A program made the translations under genes and the position numbers. Positions 1,113-23,457 of a stretch of 34,322 bases of DNA are shown piece after piece; position 1 is the first letter of the stretch; each line of letters begins with the position of its first letter. Under the pieces are notes generated by a model. The model had not been told where the DNA came from. It worked only from the letters and a program-made list of their open reading frames with translations, and searched no databases. The stretch spans positions 1 through 34,322 of IMG/VR virus record IMGVR_UViG_3300009105_000017; one strand, 5' to 3'. The stretch comes from a virus.

Positions 1113-3521
1113 ATGTTTATTAGTGAGTTCGTGAATTATCCTTTGTTGTTTGGAAAGCCTGTAAGTGCTGCTTTCTATCCCCGCAACATCGACTACGCAG
1201 GGGTGTTTAATGATGATGATTCAGATTATCTGAGTCGAACACCAAGTGAAACTGGCGATAGGCAAAAATGGATCTTTTCTGTTTGGGTAAAAGAAGGAAA
1301 CTTAGGAACAAATACATTTATTTTTGGTAGCCACGAAGATGGGGAAAATACAACCTCTTTTTATATTAATAGTCAGCATAAAATATATTTTACTAATGGT
1401 GACGGCGGCGGGGCTGGAGCAATAGTTTTTGTTTCAACTCCTTTGTATAGGGATCCTACAAATTATATGAATATAGTTGTTGAATGCGATACAACACAAG
1501 CAGTTGAAGCCGATAGATTTAATATATTTGTTAATGGTTCTAAAGTAACAGCATGGTCCACTGAAATATATCCAAATCAAAACGATAATACACAAATAAA
1601 TCGCCAATCACCACATAACATTGGAGCCCATAATGGAGCTAATTTTTGGGATGGTTATATTGCGGAAGCAATACTACTTGACGGAGAAACTTCTGCTGAT
1701 CCACCCGCATTATTCGGAGAAACCAAAAACGGAGTATGGGTGCCAAAAGAATCACTTGATTTAACCTACGGCACCAATGGATTCCTTTTAGATTTTGCAA
1801 ATTCCGGAGCAAACCTTGGCGACGATGCTTCCGGAAATGGGAATGACTTTACTCGTAATGGGACACCGGAACAAGTAACGGATACTCCTACCAATAATTT
1901 TGCTACTATACTTTCTGTTCCTCCAGTAGGGGTAGATTTAACCTATACTTATGGTAACACAAAAGCCTTGCAACCAAATGCGGGTGGAAACGATATCGGT
2001 GTTTCCTCAATAGAGGTTCCATTAAACTTTAGATTTTATGCTGAAGCTAAGATCACCCTTAATGCTGGTAGTTATAATATTGGCTTTGTAAATGATTCTG
2101 CCTTGCTTGGTGGAAATAACGCCCTTGGTACAATCGCAGGGACATGGGCATATGCAGATGCTAACGGTCAGATATATGCCGAAGGTGCAGGTGGAGTCGC
2201 TTATGGAGATACCTATGCTACTGGTGATATTATAAGCATAGCTGCTTATAATGGGAATGTGTGGTTTGCTAAAAATGGCACATGGCAAAATAGTGCTACT
2301 GCAAACGAAATAGCGACAGATGATAATTCCAATGCTGCGGTTACTGGCATAACAAGGCCGATTAGGTTTGCTTTTTCTCTTAACGCTCAAAACGATGTCG
2401 TTGAAATTAACCAAGGCAATCCTTCTTTCTCCATCACTTCCGGCAACACAGATGATAATGGCTATGGCAATTTTGAGTATGCCCCACCAACAGGATACCT
2501 CGCCCTCTGCTCTGCAAACATAGCCGACTCTCTCACCATCCTTGACTCCATAGACCAACCGGCAGAAGCGGTCTATGTTAATACAAGGGCTGGCACTGGA
2601 GCAGAAGCAACCATCAGCGATGTACTCTTTGATGTGAGTGCGGGGGCGAAGGTCACTACTAAAAACCGTGATGCTGCTGACGAGTGGGTGACTACAGATA
2701 CGGTGAGGGGAGCAACTGTAGAACTAAATTTTGATAGTGCTAACAACGAAAGTACGGTAGCACAAGGTCATAAAAGTTACACTTTAACAGGGTACGTTGT
2801 TGGAACAGATGATAGATACAATACGAACGGAGAGAACTTTCTTGATTGGGTTCTTAGAGAGGGAGCGGTTTATGGCTTGGACATAGTTGGATATACTGGA
2901 ACTGCCGCTACATTATTGGTTAATCATTCTCTTGGAGTTGTTCCCTCTATGATCTGGACTAAAGTTAGGGATAACGCAGGAAACCCCAGAGCGTGGCCAG
3001 TCTATCACTCCTTGGCCGCAAGCGATCCAGAAACAGATTATGGGTTCTTAGATCAAAATTTGGCTTTTTCTGATAATGATACAATGTGGAATGATACAGC
3101 TCCTACATCAACGCAGTTTACTGTTGAAACAAGTATTAATAATGAAAGTGGTAAGGATCATATAGCCTACCTTTTCGCCGACATCCCCGGTCTTTGCAAA
3201 GCCTTTGCCTACACCGGGAACGGAAACGCAGATGGGCCATATGTGCCTTTGGGGTTCAGGAGTATTATATATTTTATCAAGGAAGTCCCGAATGCGGATA
3301 GCTGGCTTTTCTACAATGGGAAAACTCAGGTTTACAACCCTGTTGAAACAGAAACATTGGTGCTTGATGACACTGCCGCTGAGGCAACTAAGGGACCGTT
3401 GGATATATTAGCGCAGGGGTTGAAGATAAGGGATACAGATGGAGATTATAATACAAATGCTGCGCTTTATGTAGGCTTCGCATGGGCAGAGCAGTTCGGG
3501 CCATATAGTAATGCAAGATAG
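1113..3521 (+). CDS. Large tail protein with lectin-like domains
   Basis: This 802-residue protein follows the tail fibre by nine bases and is probably a tail-associated host-recognition protein. Residues about 35-210 look like a concanavalin A/LamG jelly-roll, with Trp-rich strands (WIFSVWVKEG) and an FWDGYIAEAILLDG segment typical of that family. Residues about 290-450 resemble a SPRY-like beta sandwich (FYAEAKITL, VWFAKNGTWQNS). The last 250 residues form a third beta domain with many Trp and Tyr. I see no enzyme motif, so carbohydrate binding is likelier than depolymerase activity. The ATG has GGAGAT upstream. The TAG stop lies 3 bases before a palindrome copy. The tail role is inferred from position. 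Confidence 0.7.
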   Translation: MFISEFVNYPLLFGKPVSAAFYPRNIDYAGVFNDDDSDYLSRTPSETGDRQKWIFSVWVKEGNLGTNTFIFGSHEDGENTTSFYINSQHKIYFTNGDGGGAGAIVFVSTPLYRDPTNYMNIVVECDTTQAVEADRFNIFVNGSKVTAWSTEIYPNQNDNTQINRQSPHNIGAHNGANFWDGYIAEAILLDGETSADPPALFGETKNGVWVPKESLDLTYGTNGFLLDFANSGANLGDDASGNGNDFTRNGTPEQVTDTPTNNFATILSVPPVGVDLTYTYGNTKALQPNAGGNDIGVSSIEVPLNFRFYAEAKITLNAGSYNIGFVNDSALLGGNNALGTIAGTWAYADANGQIYAEGAGGVAYGDTYATGDIISIAAYNGNVWFAKNGTWQNSATANEIATDDNSNAAVTGITRPIRFAFSLNAQNDVVEINQGNPSFSITSGNTDDNGYGNFEYAPPTGYLALCSANIADSLTILDSIDQPAEAVYVNTRAGTGAEATISDVLFDVSAGAKVTTKNRDAADEWVTTDTVRGATVELNFDSANNESTVAQGHKSYTLTGYVVGTDDRYNTNGENFLDWVLREGAVYGLDIVGYTGTAATLLVNHSLGVVPSMIWTKVRDNAGNPRAWPVYHSLAASDPETDYGFLDQNLAFSDNDTMWNDTAPTSTQFTVETSINNESGKDHIAYLFADIPGLCKAFAYTGNGNADGPYVPLGFRSIIYFIKEVPNADSWLFYNGKTQVYNPVETETLVLDDTAAEATKGPLDILAQGLKIRDTDGDYNTNAALYVGFAWAEQFGPYSNAR

Positions 3522-3524
3522 TTA

Positions 3525-3544
3525 GACTGCCACCAGTGGCAGTC
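3525..3544. repeat. 20-bp palindrome, copy 2 (paired variant)
   Basis: GACTGCCACCAGTGGCAGTC. Both arms carry the change T3 to C and A18 to G, so pairing is kept. It lies between the stop of the large tail protein and the ribosome site of the next gene. Confidence 0.95.
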
Positions 3545-10099: not shown

Positions 10100-11571
10100 C
10101 CTCTGTTCCTCTCTGGATTGCCACTGGTGGCAGTCTCACGATATTGTTTTAATGCCTCCAGTAAACTGGTTTGTGTTCGATTCTTTTCAATTAACGCCGC
10201 ATATATTACTTCATCTACTGTATTCCTGAATAATAAATGGTGTACAAATACTGGCTTCTCTTGCCTCTGTCGATATAATCTATCTATCAGTTGAATATAA
10301 TGCTCCAAATTCCAGGTCAATCCATACCATAATAGTTGATTGCCCCCATATTGAAGATTTAATCCATGTGGGTCACTAGCAGGATTATATAACATCACGC
10401 TATGTATACCCATATTCCACTCTTGGATTGCATTCATAGCTTGTTTTTCTGTAGTAGAACCATCAATGTGTGGTGCAGTAGGAAAGATAGATTTTAAATC
10501 TTCTCGTTCAAACTGAAAATTGTATGCTATGATAGCATTTCCTATTCCTTCTAATATTCTTGCTCCTCCTTTCTGTCTAAGATCTACCATTTCTTTTAAC
10601 GTTTGTAACTTCTCATCATGAATTAATATTGTTCTCCGTCTGTCTCCTTTCCCTTGATATATTCTACCTTGAATAAACTGTCTTAGTTTCATAGATAATG
10701 ATGTTCTTGAGAAGGCTTCGATTTTAGCTTCTTCTAATTCAAGGAAAAATTCTTTTTCAAGTTCATCATATTGTTTTCGTAATCGTTCAGGTAAGTCTAA
10801 ATACATTGCATTGTAATGAATAGGAGGTAGTTCAACATAGTCTTCTTTTTTCATATAGATAACACGATCTTGTATACGTCTGCGTATAGCTTTTTTGGCT
10901 CCAGTTAATGGTATATATTTTGAGAAATTACCCATTGGGATTGCAGTAAAGAAACGTTTGCGGAAACTGGTGATGTTCTGACCTAAGCTATGTCCAAGAT
11001 CCATTGTATAAATTTGTCCAAACAAATCCATGATTCCATTAGGCACGGGGGTTCCTGTCATTGGATATCTATATTTAAACCTACCCATGTATCGTTTAAA
11101 TTTTCTAAATCTTTGAGTAGTGGAATGTTTCATTTTAGTAGACTCGTCATACACAACAAGATCAAAAGGTAAGAGTCTATCATGGTATTGAGTATCTAAT
11201 GTATCTACTAACCACGAAATACCTTCATAATTTATAAGATATATATGAGCAGGTGACATAAGAGCAAAGCGTTTCACACGTTCACTGGCTCCTACTGCGG
11301 CGTCACCATGAATTAAATTGAATCTTAAATATTGAGTATGTTTCCAAGCCTGTGCTTCTTGTCTCCAAGTGTTAAAAACAGCTTTTTTAGGGGCTATCAC
11401 TAAAGCTGCTTTAATCCATTTACGTTTTAATAACTGGTCTATTATAGTTAGTGCGATGATAGTTTTCCCGAGTCCTGTACCTAAAAAAAGAGCTGCATAT
11501 TTAAGATTAATGGCTTCAATTATAGCTCTCTTTTCATACTTATGTAGGTCATCCAATGTCAAAATCTTCAT
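10096..11571 (-). CDS. SNF2-type DEAD/H helicase
   Basis: This 491-residue superfamily 2 ATPase has Walker A GTGLGKT (31-37), Walker B DEST (142-145, a DExx box), motif III MTGTPVPN (171-178) and a motif VI-like DRLYRQRQ near the C-terminus. Phage proteins of this type usually sit in replication modules with VRR-NUC, as here, and are thought to remodel forks or aid recombination. The start is the ATG at 11571, with AAGGAG upstream; a longer frame adds 20 residues without support. The last residues, TATSGNPERNRG, come from a palindrome copy at 10116-10135, so the C-terminus was probably extended or rewritten by the repeat. Confidence 0.9.
   Translation of the reverse strand: MKILTLDDLHKYEKRAIIEAINLKYAALFLGTGLGKTIIALTIIDQLLKRKWIKAALVIAPKKAVFNTWRQEAQAWKHTQYLRFNLIHGDAAVGASERVKRFALMSPAHIYLINYEGISWLVDTLDTQYHDRLLPFDLVVYDESTKMKHSTTQRFRKFKRYMGRFKYRYPMTGTPVPNGIMDLFGQIYTMDLGHSLGQNITSFRKRFFTAIPMGNFSKYIPLTGAKKAIRRRIQDRVIYMKKEDYVELPPIHYNAMYLDLPERLRKQYDELEKEFFLELEEAKIEAFSRTSLSMKLRQFIQGRIYQGKGDRRRTILIHDEKLQTLKEMVDLRQKGGARILEGIGNAIIAYNFQFEREDLKSIFPTAPHIDGSTTEKQAMNAIQEWNMGIHSVMLYNPASDPHGLNLQYGGNQLLWYGLTWNLEHYIQLIDRLYRQRQEKPVFVHHLLFRNTVDEVIYAALIEKNRTQTSLLEALKQYRETATSGNPERNRG
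10116..10135. repeat. 20-bp palindrome, copy 5 (inside a gene)
   Basis: Plus strand GATTGCCACTGGTGGCAGTC. On the coding (minus) strand it reads TATSGN, seven codons before the helicase stop, and it lies just upstream of the next gene's start. Confidence 0.95.
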
Positions 11572-18253: not shown

Positions 18254-18283
18254 AAGCAGACTGCCACCAGTGGCAGTCTGCTT
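18254..18283. repeat. 20-bp palindrome, copy 9, extended stem
   Basis: The core GACTGCCACCAGTGGCAGTC (18259-18278) is the paired variant. Flanking bases also pair, giving 14-bp arms around CA, one of the strongest stems in the window. It lies between the ParB-like and DUF2800 genes with no T run on either side. Confidence 0.93.
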
Positions 18284-18304: not shown

Positions 18305-19417
18305 TTAGGCAGTAGCTTCTTCACTAACAGGTGTTTCACCTTCACCTTCAGTACCTTCGATAAACATGTCTGCAACTTCCGGCTCCTTGTCCAGTTCTTC
18401 TTGAACCAGCTCCATTGCAGCTTCGATCTGATCGATATGATCCTCTTTAAGATTCACACGTTCTTTGCGAATTAATTCGATCACTCGATCAACGGCAACC
18501 AGGACTTTCTCATGGGGTTCCTTGGGCGAAGGTTTCAAAGCATCCGCTTGCTCTTTGGCTGCCTTAAGTTTGGCTTTCTTTTTCTCAACCACTTCATTGA
18601 TGGCTGAAATCGGGTCCGGACCTTCACCTTTTCCTTTGGAGATTTTGATGGCATCCTCTACTTCAGCACGGGTAAGACTGCTTTTCAGGATTTTATCCTG
18701 GACCTTACGCTGAACATCTTCGGGAAACATTTCCATCACCTTACTTTGACCTTTGCCGGACTCTGTTTTGGTGACGAGTTTTTGGAACCGATTGGCTAGC
18801 GTTACATTGGGTAATTGCTGCGCCAGCTTGAATGTCGCTTCATCATTCTCGATGACTTGCAACGCATCATGGATGGTCTGTCTTGACCAGCAATCGCCCA
18901 GGAATGAAGCAATGACACTGGCACCAACTCCATGATTTTTCATACGGGTAAAACTCCGGTCATCAACCTTCAATGCGCCTTGATCTCCGACGTTCTTGAG
19001 GAACTGTTCCTTGTCTTTCGACGCCGCCAGCAGATTCGTCAAATGGGCCTGGAGTTGAATTACCGTCATGCAGAGATTCTGAGGATTTTCTCCCCAATCA
19101 TCTGCATTTTCATTCGCAAAGATCTTCAACATGCGCTCATCGGTCAGTTGTGTTTCCGGGCGCACATTGATTTTGATCTCAGTGAATTCGGTCATTCCTT
19201 CAGCCAGCAATTGTCGAAGGGCCTCAATTCTGTGATGCCCATATGCCAGCTGAATCCGGCCATCCTTAGTTTTTCTTGCCAGGAGATTTTCCCAGAAAGA
19301 TGTGTCCGCAATTTTCTCCTTCAAGCTCTCAATTTTCGGCTGATCGAAAACATAGCTTTCAGGATTACGGAACGGGTTGGATTCGATCTCTATCAACTTA
19401 GCTGTAATAAAAGGCAT
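18305..19417 (-). CDS. ParB-like nuclease-domain protein
   Basis: This 370-residue protein has an N-terminal ParB/Srx-type domain: LIEIESNPFRNP, then LAYGHHRIEALRQL (58-71), where GHHR replaces the GxRR box of true ParB. A helical middle region follows (SRQTIHDALQVIENDEATFK, residues 178-197), then a Lys/Ala-rich coiled coil and an acidic Glu-rich tail. Phage relatives may bind DNA, cut it, or hydrolyse CTP; no choice can be made here. The ATG at 19417 has a perfect AAAGGAGG site; the ORF extension upstream lies in the palindrome. The gene is clearly more GC-rich than its neighbours, suggesting recent arrival. Bases 18822-18881 recur inverted at 20571-20630. Confidence 0.82.
   Translation of the reverse strand: MPFITAKLIEIESNPFRNPESYVFDQPKIESLKEKIADTSFWENLLARKTKDGRIQLAYGHHRIEALRQLLAEGMTEFTEIKINVRPETQLTDERMLKIFANENADDWGENPQNLCMTVIQLQAHLTNLLAASKDKEQFLKNVGDQGALKVDDRSFTRMKNHGVGASVIASFLGDCWSRQTIHDALQVIENDEATFKLAQQLPNVTLANRFQKLVTKTESGKGQSKVMEMFPEDVQRKVQDKILKSSLTRAEVEDAIKISKGKGEGPDPISAINEVVEKKKAKLKAAKEQADALKPSPKEPHEKVLVAVDRVIELIRKERVNLKEDHIDQIEAAMELVQEELDKEPEVADMFIEGTEGEGETPVSEEATA
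18822..18881 (-). repeat. 60-bp inverted duplication, arm in ParB-like gene
   Basis: The coding strand of this segment encodes about QTIHDALQVIENDEATFKLA. It matches the plus strand at 20571-20630 in 59 of 60 bases, so the two arms are inverted. Here it lies within a helical region that fits the rest of the protein. Confidence 0.95.
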
Positions 19418-19436
19418 ATAATGCCTCCTTTCTTGG

Positions 19437-19655
19437 TTAAGGGTTATTGCCAGGATTGCCACTGGTAGCAATCTGTTCAAGCCTATTTTTAAGTAATTGT
19501 ACCACCTCCTTTCGTGCTATCCTTAGTTCTAACTTCTTCATTAACGCACTAACTACTTCATCCCGTACAGATAGTATTGCAGGAAGAATTATATTCTGTA
19601 AATATAAGTCTGCTTCCTTCATACGCATACGAATTTCTGATGTAGTAGATGTCAC
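19437..19655 (-). CDS. Small helical protein ending in the palindrome peptide
   Basis: A 72-residue, mostly helical protein (LQNIILPAILSVRDEVVSAL) starting at GTG after GAAGG. Its C-terminus, IATSGNPGNNP, is encoded by palindrome copy 10, which also sits just upstream of the ParB-like gene's ribosome site. It is the first gene after the leftward promoter near 19800 and the operator-like palindrome at 19673-19696. Not recognised. Confidence 0.7.
   Translation of the reverse strand: MTSTTSEIRMRMKEADLYLQNIILPAILSVRDEVVSALMKKLELRIARKEVVQLLKNRLEQIATSGNPGNNP
19454..19473. repeat. 20-bp palindrome, copy 10 (inside a gene end)
   Basis: Plus strand GATTGCCACTGGTAGCAATC. Read on the minus strand as IATSGN, with the stop five codons later. 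Confidence 0.95.
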
Positions 19656-19672
19656 AATACCTTCATTAGTTG

Positions 19673-19696
19673 TGTCTTATTACATGTAATAAGACA
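19673..19696. promoter_or_regulatory. Operator-like palindrome, site 1
   Basis: A perfect 24-bp palindrome with core TTATTACATGTAATAA flanked by TGTC and GACA. It ends 17 bases before the GTG of the 72-residue gene in the leader from the 19800 promoter. It could be bound by a dimeric repressor or fold as an RNA hairpin next to the ribosome site. Confidence 0.8.
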
Positions 19697-19722
19697 GAAA
19701 ATATGATAGGATTATCAACTCA

Positions 19723-19742
19723 GACTGCCACCAGTAGCAATC
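19723..19742. repeat. 20-bp palindrome, copy 11 (diverged)
   Basis: GACTGCCACCAGTAGCAATC, with two arm mismatches. It lies in the leader between the 19800 promoter and the operator-like palindrome. Confidence 0.88.
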
Positions 19743-19749
19743 TCAGGTG

Positions 19750-19800
19750 ATGGTATAGTATAAAGTGTGGGGAAGTTTTTCCAGCTTCATACTATACCAT
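19750..19800. repeat. 12-bp inverted repeat overlapping a promoter
   Basis: ATGGTATAGTAT (19750-19761) and ATACTATACCAT (19789-19800) are exact inverses, 27 bases apart. The second arm covers the -10 region of the leftward promoter, so the pair may be an operator or an early-transcript hairpin. Confidence 0.75.
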
Positions 19801-19824
19801 ATCATACTCTGGAGACTATGTCAA
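19796..19824 (-). promoter_or_regulatory. Sigma-70-like promoter, leftward
   Basis: On the minus strand, TTGACA (19819-19824), 17 bases, then TATGGT (19796-19801). It would drive the 72-residue gene, the ParB-like gene and the replication genes beyond. Confidence 0.65.
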
Positions 19825-19827
19825 GTA

Positions 19828-19925
19828 TTATTTTTTCAGCTCGATTTTAGTGATCCAGTACATCACAGCACAATTCTTTTTAGTACAGTGTACCTTTCTA
19901 ACGCATCTTCGAATAGTGTTGTCAT
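19828..19925 (-). pseudogene. Small Cys-rich gene apparently frameshifted at its start
   Basis: A TTAGGAGGAATA ribosome site is followed by an ATG at 19925 that reads only 20 codons. The neighbouring frame reads without stops NTIRRCVRKVHCTKKNC then AVMYWITKIELKK to TAA at 19828-19830: basic, with three spaced Cys, like other small phage zinc-type peptides. From ATG to that stop is 98 bases, one short of 33 codons. Adding one base after ATG (for example ATGG) would restore M-D-N-T-I-R-R-C. So either a base was lost, the sequence has an error, or the ribosome shifts frame. Confidence 0.5.
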
Positions 19926-19933
19926 TATTCCTC

Positions 19934-20167
19934 CTAAATAATTCCTGCCAATATTAACGCAGACACCACGCTGTTGGTTTCACATTCATCACACCAACCA
20001 CGATCTTGATCTGGCTCCATGTCGGTGGAATAATCGCATCCCTCATTCGTGCAAATTGCAGGAACACCAACACGCATTCCAAAGCCCATACATTCTTGCT
20101 CAATGAATTCTATTGAATCAGAATATCCTTCAGCATTCATCAATATTTCAAATTTACTCTTTGCCAT
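19934..20167 (-). CDS. Small four-Cys zinc-type phage protein
   Basis: A 77-residue protein with CTNEGCDYSTDMEPDQDRGW followed by CDEC: two CxxxxC/CxxC pairs that fit a single zinc site. Small early proteins of this pattern, ending in a hydrophobic ALILAGII tail, are common in diverse phages; their function is unknown to me. The ribosome site GGGAGGTGATAAGAG precedes the ATG. It lies in the early leftward unit with other tiny genes. Confidence 0.82.
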   Translation of the reverse strand: MAKSKFEILMNAEGYSDSIEFIEQECMGFGMRVGVPAICTNEGCDYSTDMEPDQDRGWCDECETNSVVSALILAGII

Positions 20168-20173
20168 CTCTTA

Positions 20174-20449
20174 TCACCTCCCTTTAATATGCCAACCATC
20201 ATTTAATAGTTCATCTGCTAATTCCCGAGTATTAGATTTTTTTATGTGCCTATCTGCTTCTTCTCTTGCTTTTGAAATCTCCTCTTGAGTTAATAGGATA
20301 GATAATCGGCCTTTTCTCCAATCGTCCAGAACAGCTTGTCTGCCTTCAATATAATAATGATTCTCACGCCATTGTTGCCAGAAAAACCGCATCTGGTATT
20401 CCATATGTGATGAGTATGGAATAGGAATTTTTGTGACGATTATTGTCAT
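20174..20449 (-). CDS. Hypothetical early protein
   Basis: A 91-residue protein with an aromatic N-terminal half (MEYQMRFFWQQWRENHYYIE) and a charged, helical C-terminal half. The ribosome site GAAAGGAGGTAATAAAAG is near perfect, and palindrome copy 12 lies just before it. Not recognised. Six bases separate it from the next gene. Confidence 0.75.
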   Translation of the reverse strand: MTIIVTKIPIPYSSHMEYQMRFFWQQWRENHYYIEGRQAVLDDWRKGRLSILLTQEEISKAREEADRHIKKSNTRELADELLNDGWHIKGR

Positions 20450-20468
20450 CTTTTATTACCTCCTTTCA

Positions 20469-20488
20469 GATTGCCACCAGTGGCAATC
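20469..20488. repeat. 20-bp palindrome, copy 12
   Basis: GATTGCCACCAGTGGCAATC, exact consensus. On the minus strand its first G is the last base of a TAG stop, and its end runs into TGAAAGGAGGT. Confidence 0.96.
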
Positions 20489-20808
20489 TATTCATAATAG
20501 TTTGTCCAGCAAGTAATGTATCTTTCGCCGGAATCGATGAGTGCTTCTGCCCAATGTGGTGGCCAGTGATACAGACCATCCATGATGCGTTGCAAGCCAT
20601 CGAGAATGATGAAGCGACATTCAAGCTGGCATGGAGGTTTACGAAAATCAATATTATCATCTGTGACAAATCCACTATGCACTTCAATAATATCTTTTAA
20701 TCTGACATCCAGCCAGCTATGATCGTCCATGTAAGCATAACTTCGATCACAGCACCAGCCGCGCATTGGTCTAAGGTTTGGGAAAAATGTGAAAACATAT
20801 GGTAGCAT
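20488..20808 (-). CDS. Early protein carrying the inverted ParB segment
   Basis: A 106-residue protein starting at the ATG at 20808 after AAGGAGGAAGTA; the ATG overlaps the TAA of the upstream small gene (TAATG). The N-terminus (MLPYVFTFFPNLRPMRGWCC) is aromatic and Cys-containing. Residues about 60-79 (CQLECRFIILDGLQRIMDGL) are read from the antisense of a 60-bp piece of the ParB-like gene. The sequence on both sides still looks natural (YHWPPHWAEALIDSGERYI), so either this gene is the original source or the insertion was absorbed in frame. Function unknown. The stop is TAG at 20488-20490, touching a palindrome. Confidence 0.72.
   Translation of the reverse strand: MLPYVFTFFPNLRPMRGWCCDRSYAYMDDHSWLDVRLKDIIEVHSGFVTDDNIDFRKPPCQLECRFIILDGLQRIMDGLYHWPPHWAEALIDSGERYITCWTNYYE
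20571..20630 (+). repeat. 60-bp inverted duplication, arm in early gene
   Basis: On the plus strand this matches the coding (minus) strand at 18822-18881 in 59 of 60 bases. The single difference is C at 20597 against T in the ParB coding strand. It lies antisense inside the 106-residue gene. Confidence 0.95.
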
Positions 20809-20954: not shown

Positions 20955-20976
20955 TTACTCACCTCCTTTCTGTTGT

Positions 20977-20998
20977 GTCTTATTACATGTAATAAGAC
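20977..20998. promoter_or_regulatory. Operator-like palindrome, site 2
   Basis: A perfect 22-bp palindrome with the same TTATTACATGTAATAA core and GTC/GAC flanks as site 1. It lies 37 bases downstream of the -10 element and just before the ribosome site of the 48-residue gene. Confidence 0.82.
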
Positions 20999-21035
20999 GT
21001 TATATTCATCATCTAAAACAATTCCCATCTTACTT

Positions 21036-21064
21036 ATTATACCACAACGTGCTATCTATGTCAA
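21036..21064 (-). promoter_or_regulatory. Perfect sigma-70 promoter, leftward
   Basis: On the minus strand, TTGACA (21059-21064), 17 bases, then TATAAT (21036-21041): full consensus. It shares the sequence AGTGCTTGACAT with the promoter near 22500, so the two probably share origin or control. Confidence 0.88.
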
Positions 21065-21140: not shown

Positions 21141-21208
21141 ATATGCATATAAACACATATGTACACGAATGCACATATGCATATAAACACATATGCGCAC
21201 GAATGCAC
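21141..21208. repeat. 34-bp tandem direct repeat, two units
   Basis: Units 21141-21174 and 21175-21208 differ at two bases. Each holds ATATGCATATAAACACATAT, rich in CATATG-type half-palindromes. It lies between the promoter region and a terminator, and could be a protein-binding array or an origin-like iteron pair. Confidence 0.9.
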
Positions 21209-21220
21209 ATATAAAATGAA

Positions 21221-21257
21221 AATTTAAGCCCGTATCAAAATGATACGGGCTTAAATT
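21221..21257 (-). terminator. Strong terminator of the first leftward unit
   Basis: Perfect 17-bp arms with a 3-base loop (AAA on plus). Read leftward, the stem ends in AAATTTTCATTTT, a T-rich tail typical of Rho-independent termination. It lies directly after the stop of the 32-residue membrane gene. Confidence 0.85.
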
Positions 21258-21356
21258 CTATGACTCTAAAAATATTATCATCGCGTTAATACGACCGATG
21301 ATAAAACATAATACTGATACGAGTAACATACCGAATACGAAGATACTAAAAAGCAT
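21258..21356 (-). CDS. Tiny membrane protein, 32 residues
   Basis: The ATG at 21356 follows GGAAGGAGTATAGACC, a strong ribosome site, and the frame ends in TAG that abuts the terminator. The product begins MLFSIFVFGMLLVSVLCFII and continues GRINAMIIFLES, so it is a single membrane span with a short tail. It could be an early membrane effector such as an exclusion or inhibitor peptide. No family is recognised. Confidence 0.65.
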   Translation of the reverse strand: MLFSIFVFGMLLVSVLCFIIGRINAMIIFLES

Positions 21357-22515: not shown

Positions 22516-22525
22516 GCACTATTTT

Positions 22526-22547
22526 GTCTTATTACATGTAATAAAAC
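22526..22547. promoter_or_regulatory. Operator-like palindrome, site 3
   Basis: Core TTATTACATGTAATAA with GTC on one side and AAC on the other, so one mismatch. With flanking TTT/AAA the symmetry extends further. It is upstream of the -35 here, unlike sites 1 and 2, so a bound protein could activate at this site. Confidence 0.8.
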
Positions 22548-22958
22548 AAAGTGTTATAAACAGCTAAAATAAAACAATGTTTTATGTTAGTTTGCCCAAA
22601 GCAATTCGCGTATGTTTAATTATGTCATACCTAAGTTACTGTAATCATTGATTATTCCTTGTTATCATAGTAGTAAGTAATTATAAATATGAGTATAGAA
22701 ATTTTAGGTAAAAAGCGCGCGCAAACCTATAATAGAAAATAGGTTTTACTATGATAACTATGCAGAACTATGACACAAGAAAAACAGATAGTTTTATTGA
22801 TACCTCTTTTACTGCCTTGAATAAAAGACGGACTATGTTTCTGATTGCAATGTATTTTTCTACGCTTCAGTGTGTCGGCTAGTCAGCATACCGTAAAAGG
22901 TTTGATTACTAATACATTGTTTTACTTATGTCTTAATGTTAAGTTAGCTAAACAATTG

Positions 22959-23182: not shown

Positions 23183-23217
23183 GATTGCCCTAAGCTCCTC
23201 ACCTCATGGTGGCAATC
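23183..23217. repeat. 20-bp palindrome, copy 16 with enlarged loop
   Basis: GATTGCC and GGCAATC arms separated by 21 bases in place of the usual 6 between them. Probably a copy with an insertion in its centre. Confidence 0.7.
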
Positions 23218-23248
23218 CGCCCATACTACCCTACAGCCAAAAATTTCG

Positions 23249-23274
23249 GATTGCCCTACAGCCCGGTGGCAATC
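23249..23274. repeat. 20-bp palindrome, copy 17 with enlarged loop
   Basis: GATTGCC-12-GGCAATC. The loop begins CCTA like that of copy 16 (CCCTAAGCTCC, CCCTACAGCCC), so the two share an origin. Confidence 0.72.
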
Positions 23275-23370
23275 CACCATTTCTCCGTATGCAAGAATCA
23301 TGCCAACTTTTAACATCTCTAAATTTATTTTTTCTCCCTATTTTTCACTCCTCCACTTAAAAAATAATTC

Positions 23371-23399
23371 TTGACATTTAATAAAAAGTATGTTATAAT
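23371..23399 (+). promoter_or_regulatory. Perfect sigma-70 promoter, rightward late genes
   Basis: TTGACA (23371-23376), 17 bases, TATAAT (23394-23399): full consensus. It faces the terminase, lysis and virion genes, with a leader of about 110 bases. Confidence 0.9.
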
Positions 23400-23431: not shown

Positions 23432-23457
23432 TCGGATTGCCACTGGTGGCAATCCGA
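23432..23457. repeat. 20-bp palindrome, copy 18, extended stem (leader hairpin 2)
   Basis: The core GATTGCCACTGGTGGCAATC (23435-23454) is exact, with paired flanks giving 12-bp arms. It is the middle of three hairpins in the late leader. Confidence 0.95.

Follow-up and report, generated by a model that had tools for sequence, protein, structure and literature searches.

A near-perfect inverted copy of a ParB-like gene segment inside a small early gene of a metagenomic phage

RESULTS

The locus and its inverted repeat

The window, which is the whole 34,322-nucleotide stretch of the viral record IMGVR_UViG_3300009105_000017 that was analyzed, contains a ParB-like gene and three small genes, all read leftward, and two arms of an inverted repeat that lie in the ParB-like gene and in one of the small genes (p106).

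18305..19417, minus strand: ParB-like gene, 370 aa
18822..18881, minus strand: source arm, codons 180-199 of the ParB-like gene; inverted match of 59/60; in place in the window and in three diverged homologues
19796..19824, minus strand: predicted second sigma-70-type promoter, TTGACA-17-TATGGT (10/12), upstream of the ParB-like gene
19934..20167, minus strand: p77, small gene between the arms; ORF with GGGAGGTGATAAG before its ATG
20174..20449, minus strand: p91, small gene between the arms; ORF with AAGGAGG
20467..20490, no strand: copy of a phage-specific palindrome (families D1, D2), directly at the 3' end of p106
20488..20808, minus strand: p106, orphan 106-aa gene with the inverted copy; ORF, ATG behind AAGGAGG
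20571..20630, plus strand: derived arm with the ParB segment inverted; its reading within p106 is CQLECRFIILDGLQRIMDGL; the one changed base falls in the codon for valine 188
21036..21064, minus strand: predicted sigma-70-type promoter, TTGACA-17-TATAAT (12/12), upstream of the small-gene operon that includes p106

The arms match as reverse complements at 59 of 60 positions across a spacing of 1689 nt and constitute the longest inverted repeat of the window, most of the next-longest dispersed pairs being copies of a 20-bp palindrome. Identity dropped to the background level immediately outside either arm edge. A BLAST search within the record recovered the second copy with an E value of 1e-25, which excludes a chance match. 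Upon recomputation, the arm coordinates and the 59/60 count given in a preliminary description of this DNA proved exact, and its two protein readings agreed with the ORF translations.

The source gene belongs to the ParB/Noc/KorB family by profile and fold: a ParB-type N-terminal domain and HTH fold were indicated by PHROG ParB-like profile matches (E values of 5e-6 and 4e-4) and by Foldseek matches to ParB/Noc (1e-4 to 7e-4, with a low overall TM) obtained with a modest structural model (mean pLDDT, 68). It differs from that family in the absence of a Pfam match and in its modest model confidence, and its partition role is putative; a PDB sequence search with the ParB alignment also returned no match. 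The model places helices at residues 179-191 and 193-200, and the copied stretch is thus predicted to encode the HTH recognition helix and the helix that follows it.

No relatives of p106 were found in Pfam, PHROGs, cultured phages, or IMG/VR, except in one near-identical contig; p91 and p77 likewise had no relatives and are orphans. In the p106 frame, the 60-base segment reads as 20 sense codons with no stop; a stop codon does occur in one of the three leftward frames. If 60 bases were inserted, the frame of p106 would have been kept, 60 bases being 20 codons. No protein function is carried over, since the ParB segment is read antisense in p106. The G+C content of the segment (0.50; third position, 0.63) exceeded that of the N-terminal part of p106 (0.39 and 0.31), a weak contrast given that it is drawn from only 20 codons.

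A second assembly with both arms

The near-identical contig, IMGVR_UViG_3300009314_000027 (41,753 bases with 119-base terminal repeats), differed from the window by 8 bases and 2 one-base gaps over approximately 34 kb. It was assembled separately, from a sample that is possibly related, and carries both arms with the same one-base difference, which makes an assembly error unlikely.

Relatives and the direction of copying

Relatives were sought in IMG/VR with the ParB protein and its alignment, the p106 protein, the DUF2800 exonuclease, an arm 26-mer, the palindrome, and empty-site patterns, and also in GTDB genomes and cultured phages. Apart from the near-identical contig, only three diverged relatives were recovered, with ParB proteins of 63-68% identity, and p106 was present in none of the three.

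IMGVR_UViG_3300035698_017269: ParB 64% identical; the contig spans the region from a 262-aa homologue to ParB
IMGVR_UViG_3300017527_000324: ParB 68% identical; the contig is broken in the arm region, so that absence of a copy says little
IMGVR_UViG_3300002180_000029 (G003): ParB 66% identical; 67-bp terminal repeats, whole region covered

The segment was in place in all four ParB sequences (e.g., RQTIHDALQVIEKDEATFKLAQ), with valine 188 invariant, whereas the p106 copy has an alanine reading at this position. This identifies ParB as the source and the copy as the site of the mutation, and settles in favor of the ParB locus the question of which arm is ancestral, for which the preliminary description had proposed a comparison of both loci in relatives. 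The opposite direction, from p106 to ParB, was rejected, as ParB codons 180-199 are conserved in place. No second copy was present in the 64% and 66% relatives, whose contigs cover the stretch from ParB to the terminase or to the 262-aa homologue, and no other long anti-ParB stretch was found in any of the three diverged relatives. The near identity had earlier been ascribed to either a recent event or strong conservation; the recent event is supported, and conservation is not, given the lack of a second copy in the region-covering relatives. An exact search of IMG/VR for the p106 flanks separated by 0-30 bases, i.e., for an empty site, returned nothing. Other local duplications were observed in the corresponding region of G003 (positions 1746-3306).

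Rarity of such repeats

A ribosome-site pattern was used to select 120 further viral stretches (1.11 Mb in total) for comparison; these contained two dispersed direct repeats of at least 45 bases and at least 93% identity but no inverted one. Contigs that share the palindrome, the near-identical contig excepted, also lacked an inverted repeat at this identity. The long, near-identical inverted pair is real and uncommon. Dispersed repeats in two contigs, L013 and L040, were not accepted as comparable events, as they look like promoter-type intergenic repeats. The repeat in the relative L013 (3973-4019 and 7217-7263) is a 47-bp direct repeat with 98% identity, 3.2 kb apart, whose reverse complement contains a near-consensus promoter of the TTGACA-17-TATAAT type, and it illustrates the copying of promoter modules.

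Complementarity of the two messages

Both genes are indeed read leftward with complementary RNAs, as had been described. The sole arm difference places a U in the ParB RNA opposite a G in the p106 RNA, and the single DNA difference thus yields a G-U pair, so that all 60 positions are paired (59 Watson-Crick and 1 G-U; -119 kcal/mol), slightly better than the near-perfect complement originally claimed. In the minimum-energy fold of a 2,726-nt read-through RNA, the arms pair completely around a loop of approximately 1.69 kb, in line with the earlier estimate of about 1.7 kb. The predicted promoters before both genes, together with the lack of any terminator-like site found between the arms on the leftward strand, suggest that pairing would be possible both in cis and in trans, although this is a prediction only. 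A substitution that preserves pairing has a 15-30% chance under neutrality, and the G-U-preserving mutation therefore adds little.

Palindromes and other nearby elements

The 20-bp palindrome GAYTGCYACCAGTRGCARTC is phage-specific and occurs at about 20-21 sites in the window, for example at 3-22, 3525-3544, 10116-10135, 18259-18278, 20469-20488, 23435-23454, 28407-28426, 31066-31085, and 31673-31692. It often lies at gene 3' ends and is sometimes intragenic, where it reads ATSGN. Its stems show compensatory pair changes (GAT..ATC/GAC..GTC and GCC..GGC/GCT..AGC), and we rate this element as more striking than the inverted copy. Long relatives carry 14-20 copies, and the exact palindrome was present in 32 IMG/VR stretches versus only 3 single matches in 257 Gb of GTDB genomes. 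An Rfam search of the window, palindrome included, gave no match. Two palindrome-like variants at 23183-23275, GATTGCCCTAAGCTCCTCACCTCATGGTGGCAATC and GATTGCCCTACAGCCCGGTGGCAATC, have longer, different loops with the outer stem kept.

A 24-bp dyad, TGTCTTATTACATGTAATAAGACA, is present in three copies (19673-19696, 20976-20999, and 22525-22548); three strong leftward promoters of the sigma-70 type each have one copy nearby, and the dyad is a candidate operator of an early repressor. A perfect consensus rightward promoter is predicted at 23371-23399, in a divergent non-coding region (22.5-23.4 kb) and not far from where the cumulative GC skew reaches its minimum, near 24 kb; this region may possibly be an origin region. 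A 34-bp tandem duplication (21141-21208; 94%) adjoins a 19-bp terminator-like hairpin at 21219-21259.

DISCUSSION

Our analysis suggests that the inverted repeat probably arose by a recent templated (template-switch) inverted duplication that was tolerated, with the RNA complementarity as its by-product. During phage DNA replication, synthesis in what is now p106 would have jumped for a moment to the ParB-like gene, 1.7 kb away, used its opposite strand as the template for about 60 bases, and then returned to the original strand. ParB codons 180-199 would thereby have come to lie in reverse complement within an early small gene in the variable region, with exactly 60 bp presumably inserted rather than exchanged. 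The insert may have been tolerated because it supplied 20 sense codons and no stop in the p106 frame, and the copy would have acquired one substitution later, presumably under neutrality. A single recent event of this kind accounts for the length and identity of the repeat, its sharp edges, the direction of copying, and its distribution among relatives. It is favored by the sharp borders and the 59/60 match, by the source segment in all four ParB sequences, and by the absence of a copy in the region-covering relatives; the open p106 frame, the weak G+C contrast, and the other local duplications in G003 lend further support.

Mutation by template switching, with reverse-complement copies as the result, is an established process (PMC8794818). 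The window has a reverse-complement copy in the same molecule and abrupt borders, as this process predicts, and, as in the reported cases, a single event would have yielded an almost perfect inverted copy whose RNA can fold into a stem. Those cases are local hairpins in RNA genes with source and target no more than 8 bp apart, whereas the arms described here lie in two protein genes 1.7 kb apart; such closeness is typical of the published RNA-gene cases but is not required. Patterns of up to 59 bp are mentioned, the largest of which failed quality control (Monttinen and Loytynoja 2022, PMC8794818), and longer source-target distances are allowed for rather than shown in that work. Against a template switch, most of the reported switches are local, a distance of 1.7 kb is long by the standards of the classical reaction, and such repeats are uncommon, with none in the 1.11 Mb surveyed. 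As to a source-only ancestral state, the relatives carry the source without the copy, but neither a homologue of p106 nor an empty site was found, and this absence also counts against the explanation.

An alternative is selected antisense regulation, in which a p106 message made from the strong promoter at 21064-21036 would pair with the ParB mRNA, either in trans or, on a read-through RNA, in cis, and RNase III would cut the duplex and so limit ParB or separate the two operons. The 60/60 pairing, the arms paired in the 2.7-kb RNA fold, the consensus-like leftward promoters before both genes without a terminator-like site between the arms, and a single change that keeps pairing as G-U are all consistent with such regulation, which is chemically possible, the complementarity being the whole of its support. 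We nevertheless consider it unlikely, as the pairing was not found in the three relatives (one of them without the region), which have no other anti-ParB segment; the pairing site, at codons 180-199, is in a translated part of the message that lies well away from the ParB start; neither message would survive cutting by RNase III; and a single recent event explains perfect pairing without selection. The preliminary description of the genes as mutually antisense thus holds as a property of the sequence, while as a function it was a guess. The stronger proposal of an intragenic antisense element that evolved via inverted duplication, with a small early message that pairs over 60 bases with the ParB mRNA and triggers cutting, appears less likely still. 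The lambda OOP RNA acts against the cII mRNA with RNase III cleavage (Krinke and Wulff 1987, 1990, cited in PMC5869508), and our case resembles it in a phage RNA that is complementary to an early coding message and is a possible RNase III target. OOP, a small RNA, is transcribed from the strand opposite to its target, whereas the complement here, long as it is (60/60), is a duplicated segment inside another mRNA, within an ORF of a leftward operon and with no promoter and terminator pair found around it as a dedicated small RNA would have, and the cutting is hypothetical.

The remaining explanations concern the DNA itself. Phages mosaic freely, and recombination could have brought in the segment from a related phage in which it was already present, in place of copying from the resident ParB gene, from which the segment differs at one position. 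This origin seems improbable, in that the ParB genes of known relatives are far more different over the stretch (approximately 80% DNA identity in L007) and the exact arm 26-mer was found in no other IMG/VR carrier. Inverted chimeras are known from whole-genome amplification, and the source is a metagenome assembly; an assembly or amplification artefact is nonetheless very hard to reconcile with the second assembly, which has both arms and the same difference, and with a joint that falls inside an uninterrupted reading frame preceded by a good ribosome site. Equally remote is a DNA switch in which the 1.69 kb enclosed by the repeats would be the invertible segment. Although 60-bp inverted repeats do flank such a segment, its inversion would split the conserved ParB gene, the orientation is the same in both assemblies, the repeat is absent from the region-covering relatives, and no invertase was noticed upon inspection of the large ORFs. 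A diversity-generating retroelement was also rejected: no reverse transcriptase was noticed upon inspection of the large ORFs of the near-identical contig, and 1 change in 60 is not the signature of such an element.

Collectively, the templated duplication would be a clear and recent instance in which an inverted templated copy sits in frame within a phage coding gene, and it illustrates how two messages can become complementary over a long stretch of RNA in one step. The main caution that follows is that long mutual complementarity alone is no evidence of regulation. Plant microRNA genes that arose from inverted duplication (PMC3237417) are alike in that an inverted partial gene copy gives an RNA complementary to the gene; they differ in that they act in eukaryotic silencing and carry the inverted copy on a non-coding transcript, and the comparison is an analogy only. 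If an antisense element had indeed evolved in this way, it would be a bacterial-virus parallel to the birth of microRNAs by inverted duplication, and if the pairing is used, this locus would show the birth of antisense control in a bacterial virus.
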